This document shows, piece after piece, positions 5,282 to 51,048 of a stretch of DNA of 51,048 nucleotides; position 1 is the first letter of the stretch, and each line of letters starts with the position of its first letter. The DNA lies in NCBI GenBank assembly GCA_025352665.1, contig JANXSM010000012.1:1-51048 (forward strand), in the 5' to 3' direction. The notes below the pieces were generated by a model that saw only the letters and a program-made list of their open reading frames with translations, searched no databases and was not told where the DNA came from. The DNA is from Rhodospirillales bacterium (GTDB lineage Bacteria; Pseudomonadota; Alphaproteobacteria; Acetobacterales; Acetobacteraceae). A program made the position numbers and the translations under genes.

Positions 5282-5395
5282 GCCCCCTGCCCACCCACAA
5301 ATGCACCGCGCCGCCACGCTGCGTCCAGTGCGCATCGCCATGTTCCAGTCTAAACCCTGCCACGACATCCGAATGACGACCGAGGAGTGCTAACC

Positions 5396-6940: not shown

Positions 6941-6994
6941 ATTACAAGGACCGGCCAGCGCGAGCTCACGGCGGCGATCAGACCCGATCTCGCG

Positions 6995-7579
6995 CTAAAG
7001 CATGCCCAACACAATCCGCCGCAGGCTCCTCCAGGCATGATGTCGCGACAGGCCGGTGCGCACCACATGATCGGCATGGCGCCGCTTCTCCCGATCCGGC
7101 ATCTGCCGCGCGATCACCGCCTCGATCTGTTGCAAACTCATCTTCCCCCGCGACCGCACCCGCTGGATCTGGACGGCACGCGGCGCCGAGACCACCACCA
7201 CCCGATCCACCCGCTTCTGCCCGCCGGTCTCCAGCAGCAGCGGCACATCCAGCACCGCGGCCCGGCGCCCGCTTCGCCGCGCCTGTGCCAGAAACCGACG
7301 TTCCTCCGCCCGCACCAGCGGGTGCAAAATCCGCTCCAACCGTAGCAAAGCGTCCGAGTCCTTCAGCACGATGCCTCGCAGCGCCGCCCGGTCGAGCACG
7401 CCATCCACCACCGTGCCCGCGAACGCCGCCCCGATCGCCGCCAACGCCCGCCCGCCCGGCCCCTGCAGTCGGTGCACCGCCGCATCCGCATCGAACACCG
7501 GAAACCCCGCCCGGCGAAACGCCGCCGCCGCGGTCGATTTGCCCATGCCGATCCCGCCGGTCAAACCGATGATCACCAC
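6995..7579 (-). CDS. coaE: Dephospho-CoA kinase
   Basis: Catalyses the last step of coenzyme A synthesis, ATP-dependent phosphorylation of the 3'-hydroxyl of dephospho-CoA. The P-loop GLTGGIGMGKS stands at the N-terminus, followed by FDADAAVH, LHPLV and LDVPLLLETG, all family blocks; the C-terminal RTGLSRHHA segment is common in alphaproteobacterial CoaE. The start is a GTG at 7579 (or the adjacent GTG at 7576), with GGGGA about nine bases upstream. An ATG further up would add a long unrelated extension antisense to the next gene. Length is about 194 residues, normal for the family. It converges with the exporter gene, 54 bases apart. Confidence 0.92.
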   Translation of the reverse strand: MVIIGLTGGIGMGKSTAAAAFRRAGFPVFDADAAVHRLQGPGGRALAAIGAAFAGTVVDGVLDRAALRGIVLKDSDALLRLERILHPLVRAEERRFLAQARRSGRRAAVLDVPLLLETGGQKRVDRVVVVSAPRAVQIQRVRSRGKMSLQQIEAVIARQMPDREKRRHADHVVRTGLSRHHAWRSLRRIVLGML

Positions 7580-7649
7580 GCCGATAATTCCCCGATCATC
7601 GAACTGACACTTGCGCCCGCGCCGCGCAACGCTAGACGGAGAGGCACAG

Positions 7650-8651
7650 ATGTCAAACCCGCCACAAACTTCCGGCGCCGCCGTGCGCCTCATCGACATA
7701 ACCCGCAGCTGGGGCACCACCACAGCGCTCGACGGCGTGTCCATCGATGTCGCCCCAGGCAGCTTCTGCGTGCTACTCGGACCCTCCGGCTGTGGCAAAA
7801 CCACCTGCCTGCGCATCGTCGCCGGCCTCGAACAGGCCACCGGCGGCCGCATCGAAATCGGCGGCCGAGACGTAACCAGCCTCCCCCCCGCCGAACGCGG
7901 CGTGGCCATGGTCTTCCAATCCTACGCCCTCTTCCCCCACCTGACCGTCGCCGAGAACATCGTCTTCGGCCTCAAAGCCCGCTCGGTCGCCCCCCCCGAA
8001 CGCAAGCGACGGCTCGACCGCGCCGTCGAAATTCTGGGCATCGCAGCCCTCCTGGCCCGCCGCCCCGGCCAGCTCTCCGGCGGCCAGCAGCAACGCGTCG
8101 CCCTCGGCCGCGCCATCGTCGCCGAAGCCCCCGTGTGCCTCATGGACGAACCCCTCTCCAATCTCGACGCCCAGCTCCGCGCCGAAATGCGCCGCGAAAT
8201 CCTCGCCCTCCAGCGCCGCCTCGGCATCACCATGCTCTACGTCACCCACGACCAGACCGAAGCCATGGGCATGGCCGACCAGGTCGTACTCCTCAACCAA
8301 GGCCGCGTGGAACAGGACGCCCCGCCCGACGTGATGTACGCAACCCCCGCCACCCGCTTCGCCGCAGCCTTCATCGGAACACCCCCCATGAACCTGCTGC
8401 AGCTCGACAACACCCTCGTCGGCATCCGCCCGGAAGACCTGCGCCTCGCGGAAACCGGCCTCGCCGCAACCGTCATCTCAGCCGAATATCTCGGCGCCGA
8501 CACGGTCGTCTCCTGCGACATCCAAGGCCAGACCGCCCTCGCCCGCCTCCCCGGCCGCGTCCGCCTCGCACCCGGCACGAAAATCCATCTCGACCACAAC
8601 CCCGGCGCCCGGCATCGTTTCGATGCCACCACCGGCCTGCGCCATCACTGA
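7650..8651 (+). CDS. ABC transporter ATP-binding protein, UgpC/MalK family
   Basis: A 333-residue ATPase that powers a carbohydrate-type (CUT1) importer at the inner face of the membrane. It has Walker A GPSGCGKT, Q-loop FQSYALFPH, signature LSGGQQQRVALGRA, Walker B VCLMDEPLSNLD and the switch His in THDQTEAM, then a C-terminal regulatory/OB region with the GIRPEDLRL motif of this family. The ATG at 7650 is preferred over an upstream in-frame codon at 7611 because GGAGAGG (7638-7644) precedes it. A binding-protein gene follows 18 bases later. The permeases are 3.9 kb downstream, beyond a divergent gene. Confidence 0.92.
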   Translation: MSNPPQTSGAAVRLIDITRSWGTTTALDGVSIDVAPGSFCVLLGPSGCGKTTCLRIVAGLEQATGGRIEIGGRDVTSLPPAERGVAMVFQSYALFPHLTVAENIVFGLKARSVAPPERKRRLDRAVEILGIAALLARRPGQLSGGQQQRVALGRAIVAEAPVCLMDEPLSNLDAQLRAEMRREILALQRRLGITMLYVTHDQTEAMGMADQVVLLNQGRVEQDAPPDVMYATPATRFAAAFIGTPPMNLLQLDNTLVGIRPEDLRLAETGLAATVISAEYLGADTVVSCDIQGQTALARLPGRVRLAPGTKIHLDHNPGARHRFDATTGLRHH

Positions 8652-8669
8652 TCCAGCAACAGGGGACGT

Positions 8670-9959
8670 ATGATGTCTTTCACCCGCCGCAACCTGCTCG
8701 CCACCGCCTCCCTCGCCCTGCCGGCGTTGGCCGCCCCCGGTATCGCCCGCGCCGATTCAACCACGGTGGAATTCTACTTCCCCGTCGCCGTCGGCGGCCC
8801 CATCACCAAAATCGTCGACGACCTCGCCGCAGGCTTCATGAAGGAAAACCCCGACATCGCCCTCAAGCCGGTCTACGCCGGCAACTATACGGACACGCTG
8901 ACCAAGGCCGTCACCGCCACCAAGGCAGGCGCCGGCCCGCAGCTCGCAGTCCTCCTCTCCACCGACGCCTACTCCCTCATCGACGACGAACTGATCGTCC
9001 CCTTCGACAACACCGCCGACGACAAAATGTGGCTCCAAGGCTTCTACCCCGCCTTCATGAAGAACGGCCTCATCAACGGCCGCACCTGGGGCGTGCCGTT
9101 CCAACGCTCCACCATCGTCATGTATTACAACAAGGCCGCCTTCGCCGAAGCGGGCCTCGACCCCGAAGCCCCGCCCGCCACCTGGACCGAACACGCCGAA
9201 TACGCCGTCAAACTTACCAAGCGTGACGGCGACCGCGTCACCCGCTGGGGCATCGAAATCCCCGGCACCGGCTTCACCTACTGGCTGCTCCAAGCCATGG
9301 TCGCCGAAGCCGGTGGCGAAATGGGCTCGACCGACGGCACCAAGGTCAGCTTCAACAGCCCAGCCGTAAACGACGCCCTGCAATACTGGGTCGACCTGTC
9401 CACCAAGGAAAAAGCCCACCCCCCTGGCATCGTCGACTGGGGCACCGCCCCGCGAGACTTCCTGGAAGGCAAGGCCGGCATGATCTGGCACACCACCGGA
9501 AACCTCACCAACATAAAGGCCAACGCCAAGTTTCCCTTCGGCGTCGCCATGCTCCCTGCCAAAATGCGCCGCGGCAGCCCCACCGGCGGCGGCAACTTCT
9601 ACATGTTCAAATCCGCCACCGCCGCCCAACAGGCCGCCAGCGTCAAATTCCTGAAATGGGTCACCTCCCCCGAACGCGCCGCCGCCTGGGGCATCGCCAC
9701 CGGATACGTCGCAACCCGGCCAGACGCCTGGACCACCCAGGCCATGAAAGACTACCTCCAAAGCTTCCCGGCCGCCGCCGTGGCACGCGACCAGCTCGAA
9801 TTTGCCGTCCCCGAGTTTTCGACCCACGACAACCAGAAAATCGTCACCATCATCGACGACCAACTCCAGGCCGCCCTCCTCGGCAGCAAAACACCCAAAG
9901 CCGCCCTCGATGACGCGCAAATCGCCGCCACGCGCGTTTTGAAGCCCTACGTCCGGTAG
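8670..9959 (+). CDS. ABC transporter substrate-binding protein, UgpB-like (paralog 1)
   Basis: A 429-residue extracellular solute-binding protein (family 1). A Tat-like signal (TRRNLLATASLALPALA, residues 5-21) ends at an ARA cleavage site near residue 28. The mature part opens with VEFYFPVAVGGPITK and shares many blocks with the second binding protein at 11205 (VPVYAGNY-like, VPFQRST, YYNKA, DFLEG, TTGNLTN, ATRPDAW). AGGGGA directly precedes the ATG. It belongs to the importer encoded around it. By family, UgpB proteins bind glycerol-3-phosphate or glycerophosphodiesters, but the ligand here is not proven. Confidence 0.88.
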   Translation: MMSFTRRNLLATASLALPALAAPGIARADSTTVEFYFPVAVGGPITKIVDDLAAGFMKENPDIALKPVYAGNYTDTLTKAVTATKAGAGPQLAVLLSTDAYSLIDDELIVPFDNTADDKMWLQGFYPAFMKNGLINGRTWGVPFQRSTIVMYYNKAAFAEAGLDPEAPPATWTEHAEYAVKLTKRDGDRVTRWGIEIPGTGFTYWLLQAMVAEAGGEMGSTDGTKVSFNSPAVNDALQYWVDLSTKEKAHPPGIVDWGTAPRDFLEGKAGMIWHTTGNLTNIKANAKFPFGVAMLPAKMRRGSPTGGGNFYMFKSATAAQQAASVKFLKWVTSPERAAAWGIATGYVATRPDAWTTQAMKDYLQSFPAAAVARDQLEFAVPEFSTHDNQKIVTIIDDQLQAALLGSKTPKAALDDAQIAATRVLKPYVR

Positions 9960-9977
9960 TTATCGCAGGAAGCAAGG

Positions 9978-10021
9978 CGAGGGCTCCGCCCCTCGACCCC
10001 GCCAGAGGCGGTGGCCTCTGG
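9978..10021 (+). terminator. Tandem small hairpins after the first binding-protein gene
   Basis: Two GC-rich hairpins follow the stop codon at 9957-9959: CGAGGG/CCCTCG (9978-9983 with 9990-9995), then CCAGAGGC/GCCTCTGG (10002-10009 with 10014-10021, four-base loop). No U-tract follows, so strong intrinsic termination is uncertain. A similar cluster with GGGCTCTGCCC follows the methyltransferase gene near 18621, suggesting a recurrent gene-end element. Confidence 0.5.
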
Positions 10022-11204: not shown

Positions 11205-12518
11205 ATGTTGCACCGTCGTAGTCTGCTCACCACCGCAGCCGTTGGCGTGGCAACGCTTGCGGCCCCCGCCATTCTCCGCGCCCAGACCGTCAAGACGCTG
11301 AGCTTCTATTACCCGATCGCTGTCGGCGGCCCGATCGCCGCCATTATCGATGGCTATTGCCGCGCGTTCGCAGCCGAAAGCGGCATCACCGTCATTCCCG
11401 TCTACGCTGGCAACTACGTTGAGACCGCCACCAAAGCTGTCACGGCCATCAAAGCCGGCGCCGGTCTTGGCGGCGGCGGCCCGCACATGGCCGTCTTGGG
11501 CTCCACCGAAATCCACGCCTTGCACGACATGGACATCTTGGTCGCCCCCGAGGAAATCGGCCTTGATGCCGAGGGCAAAACTTGGCTCGAAACCTTCTAC
11601 CCGGCCTTCCTCGCCAATGCGCGTGAGGCCGGCAAAATCTGGTCCGTTCCCTTCCAGCGCTCCACCGCGGTCGACTATTACAACAAGGCCCAGTTCGCCG
11701 CAGCCGGCCTCGACCCCGACCATTTCCCCACCACCTGGGACGGTCTGGTCAACGCTGCCACCAAGCTCACCAACCGCAACGCCAACGCCACCAGCCGCTG
11801 GGGTTTCAAACTCGCGTCCGATGTCGGCAACGCGCAATGGACCTTCGGAGCCCTCGCCTGGCAGAACGACCACCGGCTGATGAACGAAGCCGGCACCGAG
11901 GTTTATTTCAACGCCCCCGCCGCCATCCAGGCTCTCGAGTTCTGGCGCAGCCTGGCGTTCGACCATAAGGTGACCCCGCAGGGCATCACCACCTGGGGCA
12001 CACTGCCGTCCGATTTCCTTGAGGGAAACACCTCGATCATCCAGAGCACCACAGGCAATCTGACCAACCTGCGCGACAAGGCCGGCTTTGCCTTCGGTGT
12101 CGGCGGTCTGCCCGGCCGTGACGGCGTGCGTACCGTGGTCGGCGGCGGCAATCTGTATTTCTTCAAGAACGCCAACGACGCCGAACGCCAGGCCTCGCTG
12201 AAATTTGCGCGCTTCCTGTCCACCCCCGAACGCGCGGCTGACTGGTGCATGCGCACGGGCTACATCGCCACGCGCCCGGACGCCTGGGAAACTCCGGCGC
12301 TTGCGGAATACGTGGCCAAGTTCCCCGCCGCCAACGTCGCTCGCTCCTATTTGCCGCAGGCCACCGGCGAGATCTCCACCTTCGAGAACCAGCGCGTTCA
12401 GGCCACCCTCACCGCCGAAATCCAGGCCTGCCTGTCCGGCAGCAAAACCGCGGCACAGGCGATGGCCGACGCGCAAACAGCCTCTGACAAAATCCTCAAA
12501 GGCTTCCGGCGCGGGTGA
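11205..12518 (+). CDS. ABC transporter substrate-binding protein, UgpB-like (paralog 2)
   Basis: A 437-residue extracellular binding protein, paralogous to the one at 8670, with the same sequence of blocks (FYYPIAVGGPIAA, VPFQRST, YYNKA, TWGTLPSDFLEG, TTGNLTN, ATRPDAW). A Tat-type signal with RRSLLTTAA ends near residue 26 (ILRAQ). The ATG at 11205 is chosen because GGGAG (11192-11196) sits eight bases upstream; the ATG at 11199 would leave only two. The stop overlaps the GTG start of the first permease, so this is the binding protein directly tied to the permeases. The 235 bases upstream must carry the promoter, but I cannot pick out its boxes with confidence. Confidence 0.9.
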   Translation: MLHRRSLLTTAAVGVATLAAPAILRAQTVKTLSFYYPIAVGGPIAAIIDGYCRAFAAESGITVIPVYAGNYVETATKAVTAIKAGAGLGGGGPHMAVLGSTEIHALHDMDILVAPEEIGLDAEGKTWLETFYPAFLANAREAGKIWSVPFQRSTAVDYYNKAQFAAAGLDPDHFPTTWDGLVNAATKLTNRNANATSRWGFKLASDVGNAQWTFGALAWQNDHRLMNEAGTEVYFNAPAAIQALEFWRSLAFDHKVTPQGITTWGTLPSDFLEGNTSIIQSTTGNLTNLRDKAGFAFGVGGLPGRDGVRTVVGGGNLYFFKNANDAERQASLKFARFLSTPERAADWCMRTGYIATRPDAWETPALAEYVAKFPAANVARSYLPQATGEISTFENQRVQATLTAEIQACLSGSKTAAQAMADAQTASDKILKGFRRG

Positions 12519-13384
12519 AGCGACAGACCTTCCATGCCTGGCTGATGATCGCGCCCTCTCTGGTTCTTCTGGTGGCGTTCACCCATTGGCCAGCCATCGT
12601 CACCATGATCGACAGTCTCTACGCAACACCGCGCGGGTCTCGCCCGCCGGTGTTCGTGGGGCTGGAGAACTTTCAGGACATCTTCGCCGACCCCGTGTTC
12701 ATCAAGGCGCTCGTCAACAACGCCTGGTACGCAGGGGTCACCATCCCCGCCTCCATCGTGATCGCGCTGCTGATGGCGCTGGCCGTCAACACCGCCATCC
12801 CCGGACGTGCCCTGGTGCGCATGGCCTATTTCACCCCCACCATGTTGCCCATGATCGCGGTGGCCAACATCTGGCTGTTCTTTTTCACGCCCGACTACGG
12901 CCTGTTCGACCAGATCGCCGGCATCTTCGGATTCGGCCGCCACAACTGGCTTGGCGAAACTGCCACCGCCTTGCCAGCCATGATGATCGTCGCCGTCTGG
13001 AAGGAAGCCGGCTTCTTCATGATCTTCTATCTCGCCGCCTTGCAGTCCATGCCGCCCGATCTTGCTGAAGCTGGCCAGCTCGAAGGTGCTTCTCGCCTGT
13101 TGTATTTCCGCAAGGTCACCTGGCCGCTGCTGATGCCAACCACGCTGTTCGTCGGCGTCAACGCCGTCATCAACGCCTTCCGCCTGGTCGACCACGTGGT
13201 GGTGATGACGCGCGGCGGCCCCAACAACGCCACCAACTTGCTGCTCTACCACATCTACGAGGTCGGTTTTCGGTACTGGGACACGTCCCAGGCCGCCGCC
13301 CTCACCATGGTGCTGCTCGCCATTCTCGGCGGGTTCGCAGCGCTGCAGTTCGGCATTCTCGGCCGCCGGACGCATTACCGATGA
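12515..13384 (+). CDS. ABC sugar/glycerophosphate-type permease, UgpA/MalF family
   Basis: A 289-residue inner-membrane permease with about six hydrophobic segments. The cytoplasmic coupling motif EAGQLEGASRLLYFRKVTWP (the EAA loop) contacts the ATPase. The GTG start at 12515 overlaps the TGA of the binding-protein gene (GTGA), and the stop overlaps the next permease's ATG. It forms the channel with the permease at 13381. No ATPase gene lies downstream; the one at 7650 is the obvious partner. Confidence 0.92.
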   Translation: MKRQTFHAWLMIAPSLVLLVAFTHWPAIVTMIDSLYATPRGSRPPVFVGLENFQDIFADPVFIKALVNNAWYAGVTIPASIVIALLMALAVNTAIPGRALVRMAYFTPTMLPMIAVANIWLFFFTPDYGLFDQIAGIFGFGRHNWLGETATALPAMMIVAVWKEAGFFMIFYLAALQSMPPDLAEAGQLEGASRLLYFRKVTWPLLMPTTLFVGVNAVINAFRLVDHVVVMTRGGPNNATNLLLYHIYEVGFRYWDTSQAAALTMVLLAILGGFAALQFGILGRRTHYR

Positions 13385-40032: not shown

Positions 40033-41517
40033 CTAGAGACTGCCGCCGGTCATGATGCTTTTGACCTTCTTGGCCGCATCTTCGGCGGCCTGATTGACCG
40101 TCATTGTGCCCGTGAGGGCATTCTGAAGCATGTCGGGCACGACGATGTTCATGATCTCGGGCGTCTCCGGAATCGCCGGGAACGGCACGCCGTAAGGCAG
40201 CATCGACGTCGAGACGTCGAGAAACTTGGTGGTCTCCAGACGTTCCTTCATCCACTTGGTCTTGAAGCCATTCAGGTTGCCGGGGTTCGACCCGGCATAG
40301 GCCATCTTCAACGACCATTCTGGGCCTGTCCAGAAACAGATAAGCGCCTTGGCCGCCGCCTGGTCCACCTTGCCGCCGTCGACATACTCAGGCTTCAGGA
40401 TGTGAATGTTCGAGCCACCGAACACGACAGCGCGTTTGCCGTCCGGCCCGGTCGGGATGAGGCCGTAGCGCATGTTGTCGATGGCTGTTTGCGCCTTTAG
40501 CAGGTCGCTGCCGGTCGCCTTTTTCTTGAGGTCCTGCATAACGTCGTAGTCGGAGGGGTGCGAGATCATCATGCCGAGCTGGCCCGCCAGGAAAAGCGGC
40601 TGGTTGTCGGCTTGTTGATTGGTCAATGCCGAGACTGGCACCGACTTGTCACGCACATACATATCATACGACGCTTGCAAGGCCTGCTTGCTCGCGGCGC
40701 TGTTCAGTTCAATCTGTCCGTAGGTCGGGTGCTGCGTGGCTTCGTCAAACACGCCGCCGCCATAACCCCAGAGCTGAGGCAAGAAGCGGTAAGGCGTGTT
40801 GCCGGCATTCTTGCGGGCCACGAGACCGTAGCCTGAGATTCCGAGCTTATCGTGAATCTGCTTGGAATATTTGACGACATCATCCCAAGTCGCGGGCGCC
40901 TTTTCGGGATCGAGACCGGCCCGCTTGAACACGTCGGCGTTCCAGATGAACGCCATGGTCTCGTTGTTGGTGGGAATACCGTAGGTCTTGCTCTTCCACG
41001 TGTCCGACTTCATGGCGCCTGGCCAGAAGTCCTCGGTCGAGTAGCCGACGTCTTCAGGCTTCAATTCCTGAAGATACCCTTTGGAAGCAAATTCGACGCC
41101 TCCCAAGATTTGCAGCCGCACGACCATCGGCCCAGCGTTGCCAAGGAGCGCCGTGCGGAACTTGTCCAGAAGGTCATTATAGGTGAGCGCTTGTTCCTCG
41201 AGCTGAATATTCGGATAAGTCTTGCGGAAGGTCGCGAAAAAATCTTTGTAGTATTGACGCAGAAGGTCAGGGTCGCCCTCGAATACACCCTGATACCAGA
41301 ACGTCAGTCGCCCTTTATAGTCGAGCGGGGTGACCTTGGCGCAATCGGCAGCCGTGTCAAAATCCTTTGTTCCGGCAATGGAGCGCACATACTCCGACGA
41401 CCACTTGCTCACGTCGACCGGCGGCGCAGCGCGCGCCGAGACGGACATCAGGGATGCTATCAAAGCCGTGGAGACAGCGCCACGAAGGACAGTTCCAGCG
41501 AGTGGAATCCTTGTCAT
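40033..41517 (-). CDS. ABC transporter extracellular substrate-binding protein (island importer)
   Basis: A 494-residue secreted binding protein of family 1. A Sec-type signal peptide covers about residues 1-30 (AVSTALIASLMSVSARA). The mature part shows LTFWYQGVFEGDP, YGIPTNNETMAFIWNADVFKRAGLDPEKAPATWDD and IHILKPEYVDG, typical of sugar-binding members. GGAGG lies seven bases before the ATG. It is the first gene of the minus-strand operon and is unlike the two UgpB-type proteins at 8670 and 11205. The ligand is probably a sugar acid or oligosaccharide of one, judged by the operon. Confidence 0.9.
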   Translation of the reverse strand: MTRIPLAGTVLRGAVSTALIASLMSVSARAAPPVDVSKWSSEYVRSIAGTKDFDTAADCAKVTPLDYKGRLTFWYQGVFEGDPDLLRQYYKDFFATFRKTYPNIQLEEQALTYNDLLDKFRTALLGNAGPMVVRLQILGGVEFASKGYLQELKPEDVGYSTEDFWPGAMKSDTWKSKTYGIPTNNETMAFIWNADVFKRAGLDPEKAPATWDDVVKYSKQIHDKLGISGYGLVARKNAGNTPYRFLPQLWGYGGGVFDEATQHPTYGQIELNSAASKQALQASYDMYVRDKSVPVSALTNQQADNQPLFLAGQLGMMISHPSDYDVMQDLKKKATGSDLLKAQTAIDNMRYGLIPTGPDGKRAVVFGGSNIHILKPEYVDGGKVDQAAAKALICFWTGPEWSLKMAYAGSNPGNLNGFKTKWMKERLETTKFLDVSTSMLPYGVPFPAIPETPEIMNIVVPDMLQNALTGTMTVNQAAEDAAKKVKSIMTGGSL

Positions 41518-41663
41518 TAGGTATCCTCCAGGTTCTTCATGCCGCTCTGCGCCGAGGTGATCGATTCTTGCTCGTTCTACCGTAAAGCACGCGTTTTTCC
41601 GCGCTATCTATCCCCTTGATCGACTAGAACGTTTCCAGATTGCGGCTTGCCTGTCAATACGTC

Positions 41664-41688
41664 GGATCGTATAGAATTTGTAGAATCC
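41664..41688. promoter_or_regulatory. Candidate operator, imperfect palindrome
   Basis: A 25-base site with GGAT and ATCC at its ends and TA…TA steps inside; about two thirds of the positions are symmetric. Its place in the divergent control region and its AT-rich core fit a GntR-type operator, but no consensus is matched exactly. Confidence 0.3.
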
Positions 41689-41732
41689 GCAAACGAAATC
41701 GGATAAAACGCTATTGATCCAGGGAAATTGTC

Positions 41733-41981
41733 TTGGTCGAAATAAGCGATGTCGAAGCTCAAACCCCTGTGCCGGCTCAGCCCGTTGGGGCGTCCAGCGA
41801 GAGCACCTCACTTTATGAAATAATCAGCGAAGATATCGTCGGGGCACGGTTCGCCGCTGACGATGTGTTCGTCGTCACCGATCTCGCTCGGCGTCACGGC
41901 TCCTCATGCGCGCAACGCCGTTCGGGGCGGGTAGAACGACTATCCGGTCTCGAACATCGTGAACCTGACCATTTCAAGTAA
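41733..41981 (+). pseudogene. Probable truncated GntR-family regulator remnant
   Basis: An 82-codon open frame. Residues 27-57 (LYEIISEDIVGARFAADDVFVVTDLARRHGSS) follow the start of a GntR winged helix, where intact proteins read like LYxxIxEDIxxGxLxPGxxLxxxxLAxxxGxS and continue into PVREAL. Here the recognition helix and the whole effector domain are missing, and the tail turns into Arg-rich unrelated sequence before the stop 12 bases ahead of the next gene. It looks like the stump of the island's own regulator. A genuine small protein cannot be excluded. Confidence 0.45.
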
Positions 41982-41992
41982 AGGGAATTGAG

Positions 41993-43159
41993 ATGAAAAT
42001 TACGAGCGTACGGCCGTGGCTGATAAACTCCCAGGCTTCTTATTGGGGAGAGTTCCTGTTCGTCGAAGTCACGACCGATGAGGGGGTAAGTGGCTGGGGA
42101 GAGATCACCACCACCACAAGGCTCGCCAACCGCGCGCTCTGCACGATCCTGCGGCAGATCGGCGTCGCCGTGACGGGCGAGGATCCAGCGCGGATCGAGC
42201 ATCTCTGGCACAAGATTTTCCGCAGCTTCACCTATATGGGCAGCCGCGGCGCCGCCGTCGAATGCGTGAGTGCCATCGACATAGCCCTCTGGGACATCAG
42301 GGGCAAAGTCCTCGGCAAGCCGATTTACGAGTTGCTGGGTGGACCAGTACGCGATGAAATCGCGCTCTACACTCATCCCGACCAGAGAAAATTCACCAGC
42401 AAGGAGGCCGTGGTTCGCGAAATTCGAGACATCGTCGAGTCCGGACACACGGCGCTCAAGTTCGATCCTTTCCCCCACCAGGGCCGCAGCGTCGATGGAT
42501 CGTCCCGCGAACAGCGGGACGGCTACCTCGATGGCAGCATGACCCGCAAGGACGAGCGCGAAGCCGCCGAACTGACGGCTCTGATCCGCGAAACGGCGGG
42601 GCCTGATATAGAGATTCTCATTGATGCGCATGGTCGCTTCGACGTTCCCACCGCCATCCGCCTCTGCCGGAGCCTTGAGGAAGCCGGCCAGATCGACTGG
42701 TTCGAGGAGCCCTGTCCGCCCGAGAGCCTTAACGCGCTCAAGCAGGTGCGCGAGAAGGTGAGTGCCGCTATCGCGTGGGGCGAGCGCGGCCACACGAAGT
42801 GGGATTTCGTGCCCGTTCTCGAGAACAAGCTCGCTGACTACATCATGCCGGACGTCACCTGGACCGGCGGCATTACCGAACTGAAGAAGATTTCCGCCCT
42901 ATGCGAGGCCTACTACATCCCGGTTTCACCGCATGACGCCGCGGGACCCATCAACGTGGTTGCGGGAGCGCAGGTGATGATGACCGTACCTAACTTCTAC
43001 AAGCTCGAAACGTCGGAGTGGAACCTCAGTAAATACGATCACCTCATCGACACACCACTCGACAATTCGAACGGCAGCCTCAAGCTAACGACCAAGCCTG
43101 GTCTCGGCATCGAGTTGAACCGCGACTATCTGCAGGCTCATGAGATCATCTTGGATTAG
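41993..43159 (+). CDS. Mandelate racemase/muconate lactonizing enzyme family protein (sugar-acid dehydratase-like), no. 3
   Basis: A 388-residue enolase-superfamily enzyme. The metal ligands are Asp211 (LIDAHGRFD), Glu238 (DWFEEPCPPES) and Glu264 (WGERGHTKW). His213 and His314 (SPHDAAGPI) plus the LKFD segment at 155-158 are the likely catalytic groups, giving the DxH arrangement of galactonate-dehydratase-like enzymes. It opens the plus-strand operon. Eighty bases with a partly self-complementary AAAGAAG-rich stretch separate it from the next enolase-family gene. Confidence 0.86.
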   Translation: MKITSVRPWLINSQASYWGEFLFVEVTTDEGVSGWGEITTTTRLANRALCTILRQIGVAVTGEDPARIEHLWHKIFRSFTYMGSRGAAVECVSAIDIALWDIRGKVLGKPIYELLGGPVRDEIALYTHPDQRKFTSKEAVVREIRDIVESGHTALKFDPFPHQGRSVDGSSREQRDGYLDGSMTRKDEREAAELTALIRETAGPDIEILIDAHGRFDVPTAIRLCRSLEEAGQIDWFEEPCPPESLNALKQVREKVSAAIAWGERGHTKWDFVPVLENKLADYIMPDVTWTGGITELKKISALCEAYYIPVSPHDAAGPINVVAGAQVMMTVPNFYKLETSEWNLSKYDHLIDTPLDNSNGSLKLTTKPGLGIELNRDYLQAHEIILD

Positions 43160-43239
43160 GCAAAAAGAAGTTTTTTGCTTCTTCTGTTCACAAAAGAAGA
43201 ACTTCTTTCCCATATCGCCGAAATCAATAAGGATCATTC

Positions 43240-44601
43240 ATGCCGAATACGCGTGGGGCCGACGAAGCGCTCAATTGGGTGAACACGAACTCCAGGCCGT
43301 CCGAGCTTCGCATCACCGATATGCGGGTCGCCGAAATCACTGGCGCGCCGTTCACTTCAGTGCTGCTCAAGATCTACACCAACCAGGGCATCGTGGGACT
43401 TGGCGAGGTGCGCGACGGCGCCAGCGCCAGCTACGCGCTTATGCTCAAAAGCCGGCTGCTGGGTGAGAACCCTTGCGACATTGATCGCCTGTTTCGGCGG
43501 ATCAAGCAGTTCGGCGGGCACGGACGGCAAGGCGGCGGCGTTTCGGCCGTTGAAATCGCGTTGTGGGATCTCGCCGGCAAGGCCTATGGCGTCCCGATTT
43601 ACCAGATGCTCGGCGGCCGATTTCGCGACAAGGTGCGCATCTATTGCGACACCGATGCGACCGTGCCGAGCGGTACCGAGACCGGCAAGCGCCTTAAAGA
43701 GCGTATGGACCGCGGCTTCACGTTCCTCAAGATGGACCTGGGACTGATGCAGATCGCCGATGTCCCCGGTGCGGTCGTGGCCCCTGCCGGCGTCCTTGAA
43801 GCGTATCGCCATCACCCCGGCCGCGGCTCGGTCAAGACGATCGAGGAGCGGCGTGCCCGCAACGCGCTGTACGATTCGCACAACGTCGCCCACCCGTTCA
43901 CCGGCCTCAACTTTACCGACAAGGGCATCGACCTTCTTGAGCAATATATCTCCGAGGTTCGCGACGTCATCGGTATGGATATTCCGCTCGCCATAGACCA
44001 CGTCGGCCATGTCTCATTGCAGAATGGAATTCGCCTTGCTCGGCGGATTGAAAAATATGTGCCAGCCTGGCTCGAGGATGTCATCCCATGGCAGTACACC
44101 GAGCAGTACCGACAACTGCAGGACGCCACCACGGTGCCGATCTGCACTGGCGAGGACATTTACCTCAAGGAGGGCTTCGCGCCTCTGCTCAGGAGCGGCG
44201 GCCTCTCCGTTGTTCACCCAGATCTGCTCACCAGCGGGGGCATCCTCGAGACCAAGAAGATCGGCGACATGGCGCAGGACCACGGCGTGGCCATGGCCAT
44301 CCATATGGCCGAGAGCCCAATCGCGGCCATGGCAGCGGCACACGTGGCGGTCGCGACCGAAAACTTCATGGCGCTCGAATACCACTCTGCCGACGTCGCC
44401 TGGTGGGACGATATCGTCACCGGCCTTCCCAAGCCGCTTGTGAAGGACGGCTTCATCACTGTTTCGGACAAGCCGGGCCTGGGGATCGACGACGTCGTCG
44501 ACGAGGTGATTTCGCAGCATCTGCAGCCGGGTGTAACCGGCATCTGGCAGCCCACGCATCACTGGGACAACGATTATTCCTGGGATCGCACCTGGAGTTG
44601 A
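43240..44601 (+). CDS. Mandelate racemase/muconate lactonizing enzyme family protein, no. 4 (long form)
   Basis: A 453-residue enolase-superfamily enzyme, longer than its neighbours because of an N-terminal extension of about 25 residues and a Trp/His/Asp-rich C-terminal tail. The metal ligands are Asp253 (AIDHVGH), Glu279 (AWLEDVIPW) and Glu305 ([12 protein letters not shown]). His355 (AIHMAES) and the LKMD segment at 163-166 complete the site. The E-D pair after each ligand differs from the E-E/E-N pattern of genes 1-3, so it is probably a separate subgroup. AAGGA lies seven to eight bases before the ATG. Substrate unknown. Confidence 0.84.
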
Positions 44602-44618
44602 GGCGAGAAGGACCGAAC

Positions 44619-45818
44619 ATGAAAATCACCGACCTCCGCTGTGCCGTTATCGGCAAGCACCCCATCGTCCGCATCGTCACCGACGAGGGCCTCTATGGCC
44701 TGGGCGAAGTCGAGTTCACCAAATCCTACCTCAAGCCTTGGGTGCTGCATTTCCGCGAGGCACTGATTGGCGAAGATCCAACTGACGTCGAGCGGGTGAT
44801 GCTGAAGATCCGCCAACGCGGCTCGTTCAAGCCCTATGGCGCAGCCGTCAGTGCGATCGAGCATGCACTGTGGGACATTGCCGGCAAGGCCGCAGGCGTG
44901 CCGGTTTACAAACTGCTCGGCGGCAAGGTGCGCGACAAGGTGCGCGTCTATAACGGCTCGATCCGCCAGAAACGCACGGGCGATCGGCCGGAGGATTACG
45001 CTGCTGACGTCAAATGGATGAAGGAGCAACCGCAGAACTTCTTCATGGTTAAGCAAGGAATCTCGTTCCACTCCAATATGAAGGACAGCATAGAAGGCTT
45101 CCATTACGGCGTGACGCAAAAGAAGTCTGGCTATCACGGTGCCATGGATCAGGGTGTGATCAGCGAGCGCGGTTTCAACCACATGCTCGACTGCGTGATC
45201 GCGATGAAGGAAGTGCTGGGCGCCGACGTCAGCCTGGCGCTCGACTGCGGCCCGGGTTGGATGCTGCCCGATGCGATCAAGTTCGCGCGCGCGGTCGAGA
45301 AGTACAATTTGATGTGGCTTGAGGACATGCTGACCGGTGACTATGTTCCGTGGGTCAACCCGCAAGCCTATCGGGAGCTGACCATTTCCACCTCGACGCC
45401 AATCCATACCGGCGAGCAGATTTACCTGCGGCACAATTTCAAGGAGCTGATCGAGACACAGGCGGTGCGCGTCATCGGCCCCGATCCTGCCGATATTGGC
45501 GGAATGGCCGAGCTCAAATGGGTTGCAGAGCACGCCTATATGCACTCGATCCTGATGGCGCCGCACGGTACAGCGAACGGCCTTCTCGGCCTCGGCGCGC
45601 TGATCAACGTGTGCGCAACCTTGCCCGCCAATTACGTGGCTTTCGAATATCCTAGCGCCTCCGACCCATGGTGGAACGACATCGTCATCGGATTGCCGAA
45701 GCAAATTGTGAAGGATTCGATGATCGATGTTCTCGACGCCCCCGGGCTCGGCCTCGACATCGACGCCCAGGGCGCCAAAAAGTATCTGCTGGAAGAGGAC
45801 GCCGGATTCTTCGACTGA
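44619..45818 (+). CDS. Mandelate racemase/muconate lactonizing enzyme family protein, no. 5
   Basis: A 399-residue enolase-superfamily enzyme. The likely metal ligands are Asp209 (ALDCGPGW), Glu235 (MWLEDMLTGDYVPW) and Glu266 (HTGEQIYLRHNF), with His316 (APHGTANG) as a possible base. The stretch 140-175 (FFMVKQGISF…) is longer than in the others and lacks their LKxD form, so the chemistry may differ. AAGGA lies six bases upstream of the ATG at 44619, 17 bases after the previous stop. The next gene converges, 238 bases away. Confidence 0.84.
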   Translation: MKITDLRCAVIGKHPIVRIVTDEGLYGLGEVEFTKSYLKPWVLHFREALIGEDPTDVERVMLKIRQRGSFKPYGAAVSAIEHALWDIAGKAAGVPVYKLLGGKVRDKVRVYNGSIRQKRTGDRPEDYAADVKWMKEQPQNFFMVKQGISFHSNMKDSIEGFHYGVTQKKSGYHGAMDQGVISERGFNHMLDCVIAMKEVLGADVSLALDCGPGWMLPDAIKFARAVEKYNLMWLEDMLTGDYVPWVNPQAYRELTISTSTPIHTGEQIYLRHNFKELIETQAVRVIGPDPADIGGMAELKWVAEHAYMHSILMAPHGTANGLLGLGALINVCATLPANYVAFEYPSASDPWWNDIVIGLPKQIVKDSMIDVLDAPGLGLDIDAQGAKKYLLEEDAGFFD

Positions 45819-46056: not shown

Positions 46057-48003
46057 TCAAGTCAGCAGGCCGTATTGATCGATCCTACGATACATTGTAC
46101 TGCGTGAGACGCCGAGCGAACGGGCCGCTGCAGCAACATTGCCCTTATAACGGCCCATCGCCGCGATAACAGCAGCACGCTCGACGTCGGCCAGGCAGGT
46201 CGTCGGCGTGGATCCCGGCTGCAAGTCCACAGATAGCGCGCCAGAAACTGCGATCGCCTGGATCAAATGACCGGACGCCAGTTCGTCGAGCCGAACATCG
46301 GTCGTGTCAGACATCAACAGCAAACTTTCGACGACGTTGCGAAGTTCTCGGACATTTCCCGGCCAGTGATACGCCGACAAAAGCTGCATCGCATCAATGC
46401 CGAAATGTCGCATCGGCACGCTGTGGCGTTCGGCAAGCAACGCGTTGAAATGATCCACCAGCAGGCCCACGTCGCCAACTCGCTCGCGCAGTGGCGGCGG
46501 TCTGATGCACGTGACTCCGATGCGGTGATATAGATCGCGACGAAAGCGCCCGGCCGCGACCTCATCAAGGAGCTTCCGGTTGGTCATCGTCAGCAGCCGG
46601 ACATTCACGCGGCGGGGTTGGGTGTCACCCAAACGGGTAATTGCCCCCTCCTCCAACGCACGCAACAGATATGGCTGTAGATCGAGCGGAAGTTCGCCGA
46701 TTTCGTCAAGGCAGAGTGTTCCACCATTTGCCTGTTCAAAACGCCCCGGACGCCCTTCGTTGGCAGCGCCGGTGAACGCGCCACGGACATGACCGAACAA
46801 CTCGCTGGCGATCAAATCCCGTGCGACAGCGCCGCAATTGAAGACAACGAACGGCTTGCCCGGAATATCGCCGCCGTGGATAGCGCGGGCGAACAATTCC
46901 TTTCCAACGCCGGTCTCGCCTTCGATCAGCACCGGCACCTGCTTGCCCACAAGATGCAACGCCCGCAGTTTGACGTCTGCCAGACAGGCGCTGTTCCCCA
47001 CGATCAGATCAAAACCATCTGGCCGCGTCGGCACAGGTGGCGGCGATAACACCGACGATGCTGCGAAGGGGCGAGTAGGCACCACCAACACCGCGCCAAT
47101 TGCCCGGCCATCGATCATCACCGGGTTTAACCATTCGGCCCGAAGCCCTTCCGGCAGCCGCTCTGCCCAGTCGTGCACGGCGATGTCGGCGCCGAGGCCC
47201 TGGACCCGCTGGCCGAGCGCCACGAGACCGGGCACCCGCCCTGTGCGATGCACCAGGCGCCCGCTACGATCGATCGCGACCATTCCAGCCACGTCTTTTT
47301 CGCTGATGCGGGCGAGGCAGATTTCCAACAACTTCATCCGCTCCGCCGACGCCCGATCAGCCAGATGCATCTCGATCTGTCGCGCCGCCAGCACCGCCAA
47401 CGTGAGATTGCCACGCTGATACGTGGAAGGCGGGCCGGAGATATCGATGACGCCGAGCATTTCGCCGGTGCCCGGTTCGAACACCGGTGCGCCGGCGCAG
47501 GTCCAGGCCTTGATACCCTCGCAGAAATGCTCGGCAGCATGAACCTGGGCCGGCCGGCCGGTTGCAAGCGCGGTGCCGATGCCATTGGTGCCGACCACGT
47601 CCTCCCGCCAGTCACCACCCAATGTGAGGTGGATGCGTTGGCCCTGGTCCAGCGTGCGGCTGTCTCCGACAGCGTCGAGCACGATGCCATCGGGATTGGT
47701 CAGCAGCATGATGGTGCGTGAACCGCTGAAGGTTTCCGCCAACTCGGCAAAGACGCCGGCCGAAGCCTCCATCAGCTCGCTGCTGCGGTGGCGCAGTTGC
47801 ACCATCGCATCGCCCCGTGCTGCGATGGGGGCCGTGCGTCCGGTCGGGTTGACGCCCAGCACCTGGCTGCGCAACCACGACGCGACGACGAAGTTGCGGT
47901 CTGGTATTTTGGCGGTGGGGTCGCCGGTCAGAAAGCGCTCCCATGCCGCCATGGTATCGCTGACCTCGGTGGCCTCTCGCCCGCCGTTGAGCTTTCCGGT
48001 CAC
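46057..48003 (-). CDS. AcoR-type sigma-54-dependent transcriptional activator (PrmR-like by context)
   Basis: A 648-residue enhancer-binding protein that activates RNA polymerase holding sigma-54. Domains in order are a GAF sensor (about 80-215, with [16 protein letters not shown]), a PAS-like linker (about 225-310), AAA+ with Walker A GETGVGKE (362-369), the sigma-54 contact loop GAFTGA (408-413) and Walker B LCLDEIGE, and a Fis-type HTH at the end ([17 protein letters not shown]). The GTG start at 48003 overlaps the chaperonin TGA (GTGA), so it is the last gene of that operon. In Prm-type clusters such a regulator responds to alkane-derived alcohols; its effector here is inferred only. Confidence 0.9.
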
Positions 48004-49637
48004 GTCATTCCCATCAACTCCCCGCCGCCGCCCCTGGCGGGGCCTTGCGTCGGATCGTAGTTGTCCGGCCGCGCCGCGATCAGGGTCTGGGTGGTGAGGA
48101 TCAATCCTGCCACCGAGGCCGCGTTGCGCATCGCGGTGGCGCTGACCCTAACCGGGTCGATCACGCCGGCCGCCATGAGGTCGTGAAACTCATTGGTGCG
48201 GGCGTCAAAACCCACGCCACGCGGGGATTGTGCGACGCGTGCGACGATCGCCTTTTCGTCCAGGCCGCAGTTGCGTGCGATGCAGGTCAACGGATAGGAC
48301 AATGCACCTTGTAACAAGGCCGCGCCGTCTCGCTCACCGCCCGACAAACGGTCCAGCAACCCGGACAACTCTGGGGCAATTTGCAGCAAGGCCGTGCCGC
48401 CACCTGGAACGATGCCTTCCTCTATCGCGGCCCGCGTGGCGTTGATCGCGTCCTCGATCAATTGCACGCGGCGTTTTTGTTCCACCGGGGTGGCGCCACC
48501 GGCCAGGATGGTGGCCGTGCCGCCGGAGAGTTTGGCGAGGCGTTCCTGGAATTTGTCGCGCTCGATATTTTGGGGTGCTGCTTCGTATTGGCGCAACACC
48601 TGCTGGCGGCGTGCGGAGACTGTGGCGGGATCGCCGCCGCCTGCGCTGATGACCGTCCGGTTTGCCGAAATGCGCACCTGGCGCGCAGTGCCGAGATCGC
48701 GCAACTGCACATCCGCCACCACACCACCAAGATCGCGTGCAATGACCCGCCCGCCAGTGGCGATGGCGATATCTTCCAGCATGGCCTTGCGCCAATGGCC
48801 ATATTCGGGGGGATGGATTGCAGCGACCGGGGAAAGGCCTCGCTCGCGCCTGCCGAGCAACGCGACAACGCAGGCCGGTGCGACTTCTTCGGCCAGGATC
48901 AGCAAGGCCCGATCCGATCCTTCCAGCAATCTCTCGATTGCTTCGATGTCGGCCACACCGAGCAATTTGCAATCGGTCATCAAGATCAGCGGATCGTCCA
49001 GCACCACCAGCATCTTCTCGACGTCGGTGACCATGTGGTGAGAGAGGTAGCCGCGGTCGAAGGCCATGCCGTCGACCACCTCGAGCAATGTCTCCACGGT
49101 GCTGCCGAACTCGACATTGACGATGCCTTCGGCACCGACGCGGGCCAAAGCATCTGCAACCATGCGGCCGGTGAAACCGTCATTGGCGGCGATCACCGCC
49201 ACCGCGCGGGTTTCATCGGTGCCGCTCAATGGCCGTGCCACCCGCTTCAGGGCCAACACCGCCTCTTCAACGGCGAGTTCGAGGCCGTGGACCAGGTCCA
49301 CCGGATTGGAGCCGCGCTCCAGGTAGGCAAGGCCTTGCTGCACCAGCGCATCTGCCAGGACGGTCGCTGTGGTGGTGCCGTCTCCGGCAACCTCGTTGGT
49401 CTGTTTCGAGACTTCTCGCACGACCTGGGCACCCATGTTCTCGAACGGGCATTCCAGTTCGATTTCCTGGGCGATGCTGACGCCGTCACGTGAAATCAGT
49501 GGCGTGCCAATCGGCCGGTCGATGATGGCGTTCATGCCTTTTGGCCCCAGCGTGCCGCGCACGGCGCGTGCGAGCTTGGCAACGCCGCGCCCCAATGCAC
49601 GCCGTGCTTCGTCGTCATGCAGCATCATCTTGGCCAT
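48000..49637 (-). CDS. GroEL-like chaperonin paralog (MimG/PrmG-type by context)
   Basis: A 545-residue group I chaperonin, clearly divergent from housekeeping GroEL. The ATPase features are kept: LGPKG, SRDGVSIA (Asp51), GDGTTT (85-90) and the DAINATRAAIEEG block with the second catalytic Asp. The apical part reads PPEYGHWRKAM where GroEL has a PGFGDRRKAM-type block. The usual C-terminal Gly-Gly-Met repeat is replaced by [10 protein letters not shown]. No groES is next to it. The ATG at 49637 has GGAGGA about ten bases upstream and gives normal length; a start at 49688 would overlap the DUF59 gene. In Mim/Prm systems such a protein is needed to fold the monooxygenase hydroxylase. Confidence 0.9.
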   Translation of the reverse strand: MAKMMLHDDEARRALGRGVAKLARAVRGTLGPKGMNAIIDRPIGTPLISRDGVSIAQEIELECPFENMGAQVVREVSKQTNEVAGDGTTTATVLADALVQQGLAYLERGSNPVDLVHGLELAVEEAVLALKRVARPLSGTDETRAVAVIAANDGFTGRMVADALARVGAEGIVNVEFGSTVETLLEVVDGMAFDRGYLSHHMVTDVEKMLVVLDDPLILMTDCKLLGVADIEAIERLLEGSDRALLILAEEVAPACVVALLGRRERGLSPVAAIHPPEYGHWRKAMLEDIAIATGGRVIARDLGGVVADVQLRDLGTARQVRISANRTVISAGGGDPATVSARRQQVLRQYEAAPQNIERDKFQERLAKLSGGTATILAGGATPVEQKRRVQLIEDAINATRAAIEEGIVPGGGTALLQIAPELSGLLDRLSGGERDGAALLQGALSYPLTCIARNCGLDEKAIVARVAQSPRGVGFDARTNEFHDLMAAGVIDPVRVSATAMRNAASVAGLILTTQTLIAARPDNYDPTQGPARGGGGELMGMT

Positions 49638-49669
49638 TTCTGCGTATTCCTCCGCTCTTGTTGGCGAGT

Positions 49670-50476
49670 TCAGTGTTCCGGCAGACATAGTATTTCAGGC
49701 AGGCGCGCCAGCACCGGGCCACAGCCACGCACGAAGTCCAACAGACTTGGCTCTGCCGGCATTGGCGGAAGCTCCTCCCCAAACCGCGCCGCCAGCAACC
49801 CACGGCATAATGCGCCGTTGAACTCGACATTGACGGAAACGCGGCGCAGTACACGGCGATGTGCGAGATAGGTCTCGGGCGTGATGGCGGCCCCTGTGTC
49901 ATCCACAAAGGCTGGATCGTGATCTCTGGCTGGCCCTGGAATGCCGCGTCGCTCCAAATAGCGGGCTATCCGCTTCGCATTGTCGCGATCATTGGTCGTG
50001 GTTCTCAGCGTCGCGACATCGAGTGCCAGCAGGGCTTCGACCTCATGGCCAGATGCCAGCAACCCATCCAGCAGCGCCAACTGACGGCGCTGGAAAGCCT
50101 TCATGTCGAAAATTCTGCGGAGGGCATCGAGGTCGCCGTCAGCCTCCTCGGCGAAGGCCTCCTGAAAGCTGAGGCCGCCAGCCATGGCGCGGTTGATGGT
50201 CTCGGCATACATGTGCGCCCCGAGTTCAACCGACACACTGCGGACCCAGGAAATGTCGAGCACTTCCCGTCGCATATCGTCTGCCATGAGAAAGGCGAAG
50301 TTGGCGGCACACCAGTAGGTCGGCAGGCGAAAGCCTATGGTGACAAGGCCTGACTGGCTTACCTCAACGCCCGTGACAAAGCCGAGCTCTGTTACAGGTT
50401 CGTCGAGTTCCGGGTCGGTCACCCGTGCGAGACGGGCCAGCACCTCGCTGGCCCGCTCGCTTTGGCTGGCGCTCAC
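49670..50476 (-). CDS. DUF59/MIP18-family protein of monooxygenase clusters
   Basis: A 268-residue protein. The N-terminal 80 residues form a MIP18/DUF59 domain (VTDPELDEPVTELGFV, then LPTYWCAANF with Cys56), a family tied to iron-sulfur cluster assembly and metal-enzyme maturation. The remaining 190 residues, with helical and charged segments such as AKRIARYLERRG, match nothing I can name. The GTG start at 50476 overlaps the amidohydrolase stop. A protein of this kind recurs between the amidohydrolase and chaperonin genes of propane monooxygenase operons, where a role in di-iron centre assembly is plausible but unproven. Confidence 0.8.
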   Translation of the reverse strand: MSASQSERASEVLARLARVTDPELDEPVTELGFVTGVEVSQSGLVTIGFRLPTYWCAANFAFLMADDMRREVLDISWVRSVSVELGAHMYAETINRAMAGGLSFQEAFAEEADGDLDALRRIFDMKAFQRRQLALLDGLLASGHEVEALLALDVATLRTTTNDRDNAKRIARYLERRGIPGPARDHDPAFVDDTGAAITPETYLAHRRVLRRVSVNVEFNGALCRGLLAARFGEELPPMPAEPSLLDFVRGCGPVLARLPEILCLPEH

Positions 50477-51048
50477 TCTGCCGCCACATGCTCAGCGTGC
50501 GCGAGCTTGCGCTTCTGAGCCGCGATGTCGATGTCATAGATCCGCGCGGCATTGAGGCCGAGGATCTTTTTCTTGGCTTCCAGCGACAGTGAAACGCCGG
50601 TTTCCTTGGCAACCTCTTCTGGCAGCTCAAAGTCCATGAATGCGTTCACCAGCCACTTCGGCGTCCAGATGCCATAGTCACTGCCATAAAGAATTTTGTC
50701 CTCGCCGACCCAGAACAGCAGCTCCGAGATGATATGGGCAAAATAGCCTGGCCGGCTGTGAATGAACGGCAGTGCCACGGCCAGGCCCGCATAGACATTG
50801 GTCTCCTGGGTGGCGATCCAGCAGAAATCATCAAGCCGCGGCAGCCCGCAATGCTCGACGATGAAGTTCAGGCCCTGAAAACTCGTCGCCACGTCATCGA
50901 CGTCAGCCACGTCGAAGGCATCGCGGTTGAGCGGCAGGATAGTCGGCCCTTTATGGACATGAATATTCTTGATGCCGAGCTTTTGCGCCGCCTCAAGATA
51001 GACGTAACACTCCTTGTCGGAGAGCTTGTAACCCTTGCTGTCACCGCG
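50473..51048 (-). CDS. Amidohydrolase-2 family protein, 5' end outside the window
   Basis: The frame is open to the right edge, so the last 191 residues of a longer metal-dependent TIM-barrel hydrolase are seen. Motifs include NIHVHKGPTIRPLNRDAFD, FIVEHCGLPRLDDFCWIA, and LYGSDYGIWTPKW with the barrel's metal-binding Asp. The C-terminus has ILGLNAARIYDID, typical of the family. Close relatives are encoded directly downstream of the propane monooxygenase subunit genes in Prm/Mim clusters; the substrate is unknown. The stop overlaps the DUF59 GTG. An in-frame GTG at 50910 is internal, not the start. Confidence 0.87.
   Translation of the reverse strand, partial: RGDSKGYKLSDKECYVYLEAAQKLGIKNIHVHKGPTILPLNRDAFDVADVDDVATSFQGLNFIVEHCGLPRLDDFCWIATQETNVYAGLAVALPFIHSRPGYFAHIISELLFWVGEDKILYGSDYGIWTPKWLVNAFMDFELPEEVAKETGVSLSLEAKKKILGLNAARIYDIDIAAQKRKLAHAEHVAAE

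Follow-up and report, generated by a model that had tools for sequence, protein, structure and literature searches.

The right-hand end of the window (the whole stretch of 51,048 nucleotides analysed here) carries four genes which almost certainly come from a soluble diiron monooxygenase (SDIMO) operon of group 5 (Prm/Mim type). They would make up its 3′ half, on contig C112, an assembly break having left the rest on C168. The operon is of a known kind. The window is the complete contig C112 (51048 bp) of a 5.27 Mb assembly in 177 contigs, and the cut at its right end is thus the contig edge. In the order of transcription, the four genes are:

50473-51048, minus strand: C-terminal half (191 aa) of an amidohydrolase (PF04909, E 4.6e-30); it has no start and runs off the contig end
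49670-50476, minus strand: DUF59/FeS_assembly_P protein, 268 aa (PF01883 at residues 11-83, E 1.5e-10)
48000-49688, minus strand: divergent GroEL-like protein, 562 aa (PF00118, E 9e-69), a candidate dedicated chaperonin resembling MimG/PrmG
46057-48003, minus strand: AcoR-like sigma-54 activator, 648 aa, with GAF, Sigma54_activat (AAA+, GAFTGA at residue 408) and Fis-type HTH_8 domains

A sequence-only reading of the window had described these genes as the accessory tail of a Prm/Mim-type operon cut at the window edge, and this description is supported. As it had claimed, the Pfam matches place amidohydrolase, DUF59, GroEL and sigma-54 activator genes in this order on one strand at 46057-51048. 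Their ends overlap by 4, 19 and 4 nt, lengths that are approximate as the longest possible start codons were used. The GroEL-like protein passed the NCBIfam subfamily model NF009487 and scored under the GroEL equivalog cut-off (561.5 vs 582.1 bits), and for this reason it is called divergent. The domain layout of the activator fits the name 'AcoR-type' given to it; no NCBIfam equivalog cut-off was reached by the protein, so the name rests on that layout.

The monooxygenase genes had been expected outside the window. Two matches to PF02332 (diiron hydroxylase) were obtained in the genome at E<=0.001, both on the minus strand of C168, where the following genes were assigned with Pfam:

C168 8810-10684, opposite to the operon: second sigma-54 activator, divergently transcribed, with GAFTGA
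C168 7438-8568, minus strand: alcohol dehydrogenase of the Zn type, the likely ATG being at 8481
C168 6455-7441, minus strand: CobW GTPase with CobW and CobW_C domains
C168 5289-6458, minus strand: WD40 protein
C168 3105-4775, minus strand: diiron alpha subunit (MimA-like), 556 aa
C168 1984-3024, minus strand: reductase
C168 858-1940, minus strand: beta subunit
C168 480-830, minus strand: MmoB-type coupling protein
C168 2-514, minus strand: N-terminal half (171 aa) of an amidohydrolase, running off base 2

The two amidohydrolase halves, on C168 and C112, fit 12 contiguous homologues end to end with zero residues missing; a single arginine is encoded at both ends. The joined protein would keep the H-x-H and downstream His/Asp motifs typical of such enzymes. 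If C168 abuts C112, no more than 5 kb separates the di-iron subunits from the window edge, and their absence from the roughly 6 kb to the right, named beforehand as a refutation of the earlier reading, does not hold. The GC content of the operon parts (62.4% in the window, 59.7% on C168) contrasts mildly with that of the surroundings (64.4% in window 1-46000, 66.2% in C168 8810-20000).

The alpha subunit aligned with the alpha subunit of soluble methane monooxygenase (best E 1.1e-63). Residues E108, E138-x-x-H141, E203 and E237-x-x-H240 align with what we take to be the iron ligand positions of MmoX, both E-x-x-H motifs and the carboxylates being present. The genes run in the order alpha, reductase, beta, coupling protein (A-B-C-D) from C168 4775 down to 480. 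A tree of 49 hand-picked alpha rows was built, from which the characterised TY-5, RHA1 and mc2155 proteins are absent; its group 5 references are two Rhodococcus plasmid copies, recognised by the order of their genes and by what lies around them, as well as Methylocella tundrae, placed in group 5 by a passage of PMC7660913. The alpha subunit of this genome clustered with those of Lichenicoccus roseus and of the metagenome-assembled genome (MAG) G024. These belong to a proteobacterial cluster (99/98), which includes Methylocella and joins the two Rhodococcus plasmid alphas (99/99). Outside this grouping were Rhodococcus ruber YYL (presumably thm), Nocardioides JS614, Mycobacterium chubuense NBB4, M. 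dioxanotrophicus (L154, which we take to be group 6) and Rhodococcus WAY2. The alpha of this genome is 62% identical to the plasmid pair from Rhodococcus; the figure falls to 34-39% for the thm and group 4/6 rows and to 27% for the Tom and T4MO-like ones. On these comparisons, alpha groups with SDIMO group 5 (Prm/Mim).

It is very improbable that the tail belongs to some other diiron system (group 1/2 aromatic, group 4 alkene, group 6 propane or thm) or is an orphan tail without a monooxygenase. In M. dioxanotrophicus, too, the monooxygenase genes are followed by a GroEL gene; however, the identities to thm, group 4/6, Tom and T4MO-like rows are far below that to the Rhodococcus alphas, and the order A-B-C-D differs from the A-C-D-B of L154 and L157. 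Membership of another SDIMO group was ruled out by the alpha tree and these identities, and an orphan tail by the PF02332 matches and the gene content of C168, provided that the two contigs are neighbours.

Some observations weigh against a group 5 operon split between the two contigs. The ends of C168 and C112 share no exact overlap of 6-200 nt and show a one-base conflict across a 4-base overlap, so that their adjacency, strongly indicated by the amidohydrolase halves, rests on homology. The outgroup branches of the alpha tree are long. No alpha match at E<=1e-30 was found in the 7 other genomes of the genus, three of which are less than 90% complete; the operon is thus patchy. Acetone carboxylase gamma gave no match in the genome, and neither did the positive control, so this search is uninformative; for the isocitrate lyase family, three partial matches were obtained, on which no conclusion is based.

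Gene order was compared in 80 related loci (L030-L109), the best of at least 590 relatives among 594 candidate stretches. Their alpha subunits are 83-91% identical to that of this genome; the counts describe near relatives only, and the loci are phylogenetically not independent. Presence was scored by set bit-score thresholds, and 62 of the loci are at least 19 kb long. In these 62, reductase, beta, coupling protein and GroEL genes were always found downstream of alpha on the same strand (62/62), as were amidohydrolase and DUF59 genes in 53 each. The gene row of the window is thereby far beyond chance. An alcohol dehydrogenase was present in 57 of the 62, CobW in 20 and a WD40 match in 42, the last including weak matches (about 30% identity, opposite strand) in Mesorhizobium; WD40 lay on the same strand no more than 2.6 kb upstream of alpha in 27. 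All 13 query pieces stood in one row in three of the 80 loci, namely Lichenicoccus roseus L030, MAG L031 and Inquilinus limosus L066. The annotation of Caballeronia zhejiangensis plasmid p2 shows this row too, except that CobW and the divergent activator are missing from it. Among 195 relatives, alpha matches at E<=1e-30 were obtained in 12, this genome included; one of these, in G160, has just 28% identity and falls with the T4MO-like row, which leaves 11 of the group 5 kind. Genome G032 holds a further alpha copy cut by a contig edge. One locus, L081, is titled Mycobacterium sp. KBS0706, and its alpha is very near that of Inquilinus limosus (100/99, short branches); the genus name may be wrong.

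The row was also compared with known systems. The prmABCD/mimABCD clusters of Gordonia TY-5, Rhodococcus and Mycobacterium share the order alpha-reductase-beta-coupling protein and have an amidohydrolase, a DUF59-type protein, an alcohol dehydrogenase and GroEL nearby; according to passages of PMC6849523, the amidohydrolase, an unknown protein, alcohol dehydrogenase and GroEL come after the propane monooxygenase in Gordonia. The operon of this genome differs from these in having alcohol dehydrogenase upstream, CobW and WD40 genes before alpha, and two sigma-54 activators with sigma-54 promoter motifs. The tail had been said to be known from prm/mim operons of Rhodococcus, Mycobacterium and Methylocella. 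For Rhodococcus this holds: strain JS3073 has A-B-C-D, an alcohol dehydrogenase-like match (30%), amidohydrolase, DUF59, alcohol dehydrogenase and GroEL, the named genes being 37-65% identical. In contrast, the Methylocella tundrae plasmid locus L148, read over 9 kb on each side, has GroEL and a sigma-54 regulator and no amidohydrolase or DUF59 match above 50 bits, so the complete tail is not found throughout Methylocella. Proteobacterial clusters (Methylocella, Bradyrhizobium, Azoarcus, Paraburkholderia/Caballeronia, Acidisoma and Lichenicoccus) share the alpha sub-cluster at 78-91% identity. CobW and WD40 were not seen in the Bradyrhizobium and Rhodopseudomonas loci, whereas most other Acetobacteraceae loci keep WD40 without CobW. 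With this operon, Acetobacteraceae join the bacteria that have the potential for such oxidation; the enzyme group is known, and its occurrence in this lineage is no great surprise.

The proposed transcription order is alcohol dehydrogenase, CobW, WD40, alpha, reductase, beta, coupling protein, amidohydrolase, DUF59, GroEL and sigma-54 activator, with the second activator diverging in front. Electrons from NAD(P)H would pass through the reductase to the diiron centre in alpha, and alpha, beta and the coupling protein together would hydroxylate a small substrate, by analogy acetone to acetol or propane to 2-propanol. The resulting alcohol would be taken further by the alcohol dehydrogenase.

'Propane' is here a name rather than a demonstrated substrate. 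Passages of PMC7660913 place the Methylocella PrmA cluster within group 5, distinct from characterised propanotrophs. The alpha of this genome falls in a proteobacterial cluster described as 'not known for propane oxidation', and acetone/2-propanol would be at least as likely a substrate as propane. Parts of PMC7176365 describe a mim cluster with amidohydrolase and GroEL as strongly induced in cells grown on acetone or 2-hydroxyisobutyric acid (2-HIBA), and group 5 enzymes are reported in sections of PMC7176365 and PMC8394569 to oxidise acetone, and phenol to hydroquinone. It is somewhat more probable than not that the physiological substrate is acetone/2-propanol, or else some other ketone or phenol from plants or soil, and not propane. 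The Methylocella enzyme has been implicated in growth on 2-propanol and acetone (PMC7660913, in part), and alcohol dehydrogenase is the first gene of the operon; yet growth of M. silvestris at high propane needed prmA, as stated in the same source, and the operon copy of Caballeronia has methylcitrate genes as close neighbours, more in keeping with a source of propionyl-CoA. The latter genes (prpB, prpC, acnD and prpR) are found near the operon at 1-5567 of L153 (C. zhejiangensis p2) and fit a C3 substrate.

Further oxidation genes were seen near some of the related operons. In L078 (Pandoraea terrae, 1-10001), CobW, WD40 and alcohol dehydrogenase genes lie upstream of mimA on the opposite strand, with MetA-type outer-membrane and GMC oxidoreductase genes near; this locus is a rearranged version of the operon. 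An outer-membrane gene of the Phenol_MetA_deg (PF13557) type lies near the CobW-WD40 pair in L078, L090, L091 and L092, and a GMC oxidoreductase gene near mimA in L028, L078, L090-L093 and L095. Possibly these genes serve in uptake and in another route of alcohol oxidation, for the most part where the operon has no alcohol dehydrogenase.

Sigma-54 promoters follow the consensus TGGCACN5TTGC. An exact -24/-12 site was found 86 nt before the adh ATG of this operon, inside a 29-aa extension of the longest adh open reading frame, and mimA is preceded at 199 nt by a site with a single mismatch. Across loci, the 350 bp before adh contained a site with no more than one mismatch in 47 of 58 loci vs 37 of 1160 random windows, with L075 skipped, loci lacking an adh match above 60% identity left out, and the start moved post hoc to the MKAAV methionine; with the longest open reading frame start, the count was 6 of 59 vs 34 of 1180. 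Before mimA, such sites were present in 53 of 79 loci vs 44 of 1580 random windows, one locus with too little upstream DNA having been dropped. The total number of sites with up to two mismatches in C168 1-20000 and C112 40000-51048 is not clearly above chance, so the promoter argument rests on position and conservation. The 17 loci of Bradyrhizobium and Rhodopseudomonas gave no mimA site with at most one mismatch; adh stands shortly before mimA in them, and only the adh site may be used there. Both activators of this genome carry GAFTGA and the genome has one rpoN match (Sigma54_DBD). The promoters before adh and mimA would then be switched on by one or both activators on sensing the substrate, the putative inducer. 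In L152 (Paracoccus aminophilus pAMI4, 4828-6090 and 11928-12857), an annotated RNA polymerase sigma-54 factor gene lies beside a Mim-type operon with an insertion sequence element between reductase and beta.

The window GroEL and 14 other proteobacterial operon GroELs form one side of a 100/99 branch in an unrooted tree with one housekeeping row, the genome's other GroEL on contig C3, to which the window protein is 44% identical. Two Rhodococcus operon GroELs fall with that row and not with the proteobacterial operon GroELs, so the tree does not establish a common origin of all MimG-type GroELs. The chaperonin was essential for heterologous expression in the mycobacterial system according to a passage of PMC6849523, and the window GroEL may likewise help alpha and beta to fold.

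An AlphaFold model of the DUF59 protein was obtained from a 22-row alignment, with a mean predicted local distance difference test (pLDDT) score of 87.0. Its N-terminal part best matched DUF59 proteins in the PDB (E 1.0e-3 at best, none below 0.001), and the helical C-terminal part of about 150 aa had no clear partner in the fold search; a PHROGs scan of the protein gave no match. The model also matched CIAO2B in complex with the WD40 protein CIAO1 (E 3.0e-3). The CIAO1-CIAO2B core of cytosolic iron-sulfur targeting resembles the present operon in joining a WD40 and a DUF59 protein, and DUF59 stands directly before WD40 in L034 and L038. However, the five PDB sequence matches of the operon WD40 at E<=1e-8 do not include CIAO1, and a DUF59 match above 100 bits was not found in 6 of the 42 WD40-positive loci of at least 19 kb. 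A WD40-DUF59 partnership like that of CIAO1 and CIAO2B would be possible and is for these two reasons not the preferred reading.

The CobW and WD40 genes before alpha have counterparts elsewhere in this genome and in relatives. A WD40 relative (E<=1e-15) occurs in 125 of the 195 relatives. On contig C118 of this genome and in six of seven other stretches read, a CobW (50-54%) lies beside WD40; G032 was picked among these stretches for its high score, and its stretch (L141) reads adh-WD40-mimA with no CobW between adh and WD40. Such housekeeping pairs resemble the COG0523 subfamily 5 GTPase and its WD40 neighbourhood, tied to zinc limitation, znuABC and Zur sites in parts of Haas et al. 2009 (PMC2770081). 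The operon pair shares with that subfamily two adjacent genes, the CobW and CobW_C domains and a conserved CxCC, a likeness of neighbourhood and motif as the trees were built without the sequences of Haas et al. The operon CobW reached no NCBIfam CobW-type cut-off.

It is conceivable, though we consider it somewhat doubtful, that the pair works for the zinc alcohol dehydrogenase, or in general zinc homeostasis, and has its place in the operon without serving the monooxygenase. Besides the zinc-linked housekeeping pair, this would suit the position of CobW directly after adh in this genome. On the other hand, the operon copies sit with a diiron monooxygenase and stand apart from the housekeeping copies in both trees. 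Sixteen operon CobWs (that of this genome and 15 from the 25 CobW-positive loci) were split from seven housekeeping copies by a 100/100 branch, and 33 operon WD40 proteins from 11 housekeeping ones by a 100/99 branch. The trees are unrooted with hand-picked loci, the drawn WD40 tree nests housekeeping rows among operon rows, and L141 is labelled CobW-positive in it. C70-x-C72-C73 is kept in all CobWs (16/16 operon, 7/7 housekeeping), whereas C130 is invariant in the operon clade (16/16) and found in 0 of 7 housekeeping copies. An operon-like CobW (at least 71%) was found in 3 of the 195 relatives, all with alpha; other matches at E<=1e-100 were 49-59% identical. At E<=1e-122, the CobW of Burkholderia sp. 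OK233 (L044) matched only the present genome among 398 sampled from the phylum, a strict threshold which the CobW of this genome itself barely passes. The simplest reading of these sequences would be one recruitment of the CobW-WD40 pair.

CobW was found in 25 of the 80 loci and never without WD40. In four of the 25 (L090, L091, L092 and L095), the pair is kept near mimA with no adh match above 200 bits in the stretch, which argues against service to the dehydrogenase. Metal importers are encoded in 12 of the 25 CobW-positive and 0 of the 55 CobW-negative loci (11/20 vs 0/42 at >=19 kb); the comparison is post hoc and its queries came from CobW-positive loci, so other importer types in CobW-negative loci could be missed. 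An Nramp gene is present in ten loci: L090, five with proteins 66-76% and four with proteins 43-45% identical to the L090 Nramp. It lies between GroEL and the activator in eight of the ten and elsewhere in L078 and L090. The L090 protein passes the MntH (Mn) and Nramp (Mn/Fe) cut-offs. As the Nramp family carries Mn2+/Fe2+, such an importer is a better match for an iron enzyme than for a zinc dehydrogenase, and this too speaks against the zinc explanation. Two Azoarcus loci have a ZnuA/ABC-3 set, whose binding protein scored best with the AztC and MntC models, below both cut-offs; its likeness to zinc/manganese binding proteins of ABC importers, under all cut-offs, would agree with a role in zinc supply.

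We tentatively suggest, at somewhat less than even confidence and from gene neighbourhoods and trees, that CobW and WD40, whether derived from the housekeeping zinc-type pair or its sister, could have become a dedicated metal-delivery machine of the Prm/Mim diiron monooxygenase. The pair would have travelled together with the operon through Acetobacteraceae, Inquilinus, Burkholderiales and Azoarcus, importers (two Nramp kinds and one ABC) being added in several betaproteobacterial lineages. Several findings count against metal delivery. The 12 loci with importers all come from betaproteobacteria and are not independent of one another, and no importers were found in the CobW-positive Acetobacteraceae/Inquilinus loci L030, L031 and L066. 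None was found beside the operon of this genome in the stretches searched (L006, L003), which would also fit the zinc explanation; three Nramp genes lie elsewhere in the genome. Many operons, such as those of Bradyrhizobium and Acidisoma cellulosilyticum L039, show neither CobW nor WD40. The pair is thus not essential to this enzyme class, and may matter under metal limitation.

To our knowledge, no GTPase metallochaperone for a soluble diiron monooxygenase is known. Searches of open-licence PMC text returned no paper joining propane monooxygenase with CobW, CobW with monooxygenase, WD40 and diiron, or propane monooxygenase with Acidisoma. The association of CobW-WD40, with or without an importer, with the operon is undescribed as far as the literature was searched, and gives a testable metallation hypothesis. 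If the pair loads iron, its co-expression could give more active enzyme, and the finding would bear on how group 5 diiron sites obtain their metal.

In the window to the left of the operon, two genes of the mandelate racemase/enolase superfamily (Pfam) lie at 41993-43159 and 43240-44601 on the plus strand, and a third enolase-like frame on the same strand ends at 45818. Upstream of them, a divergent open reading frame at 40033-41517 on the minus strand resembles a sugar-binding protein by eye. The region 40033-45818 is probably a cluster for acid-sugar uptake and dehydration, unrelated to the monooxygenase.

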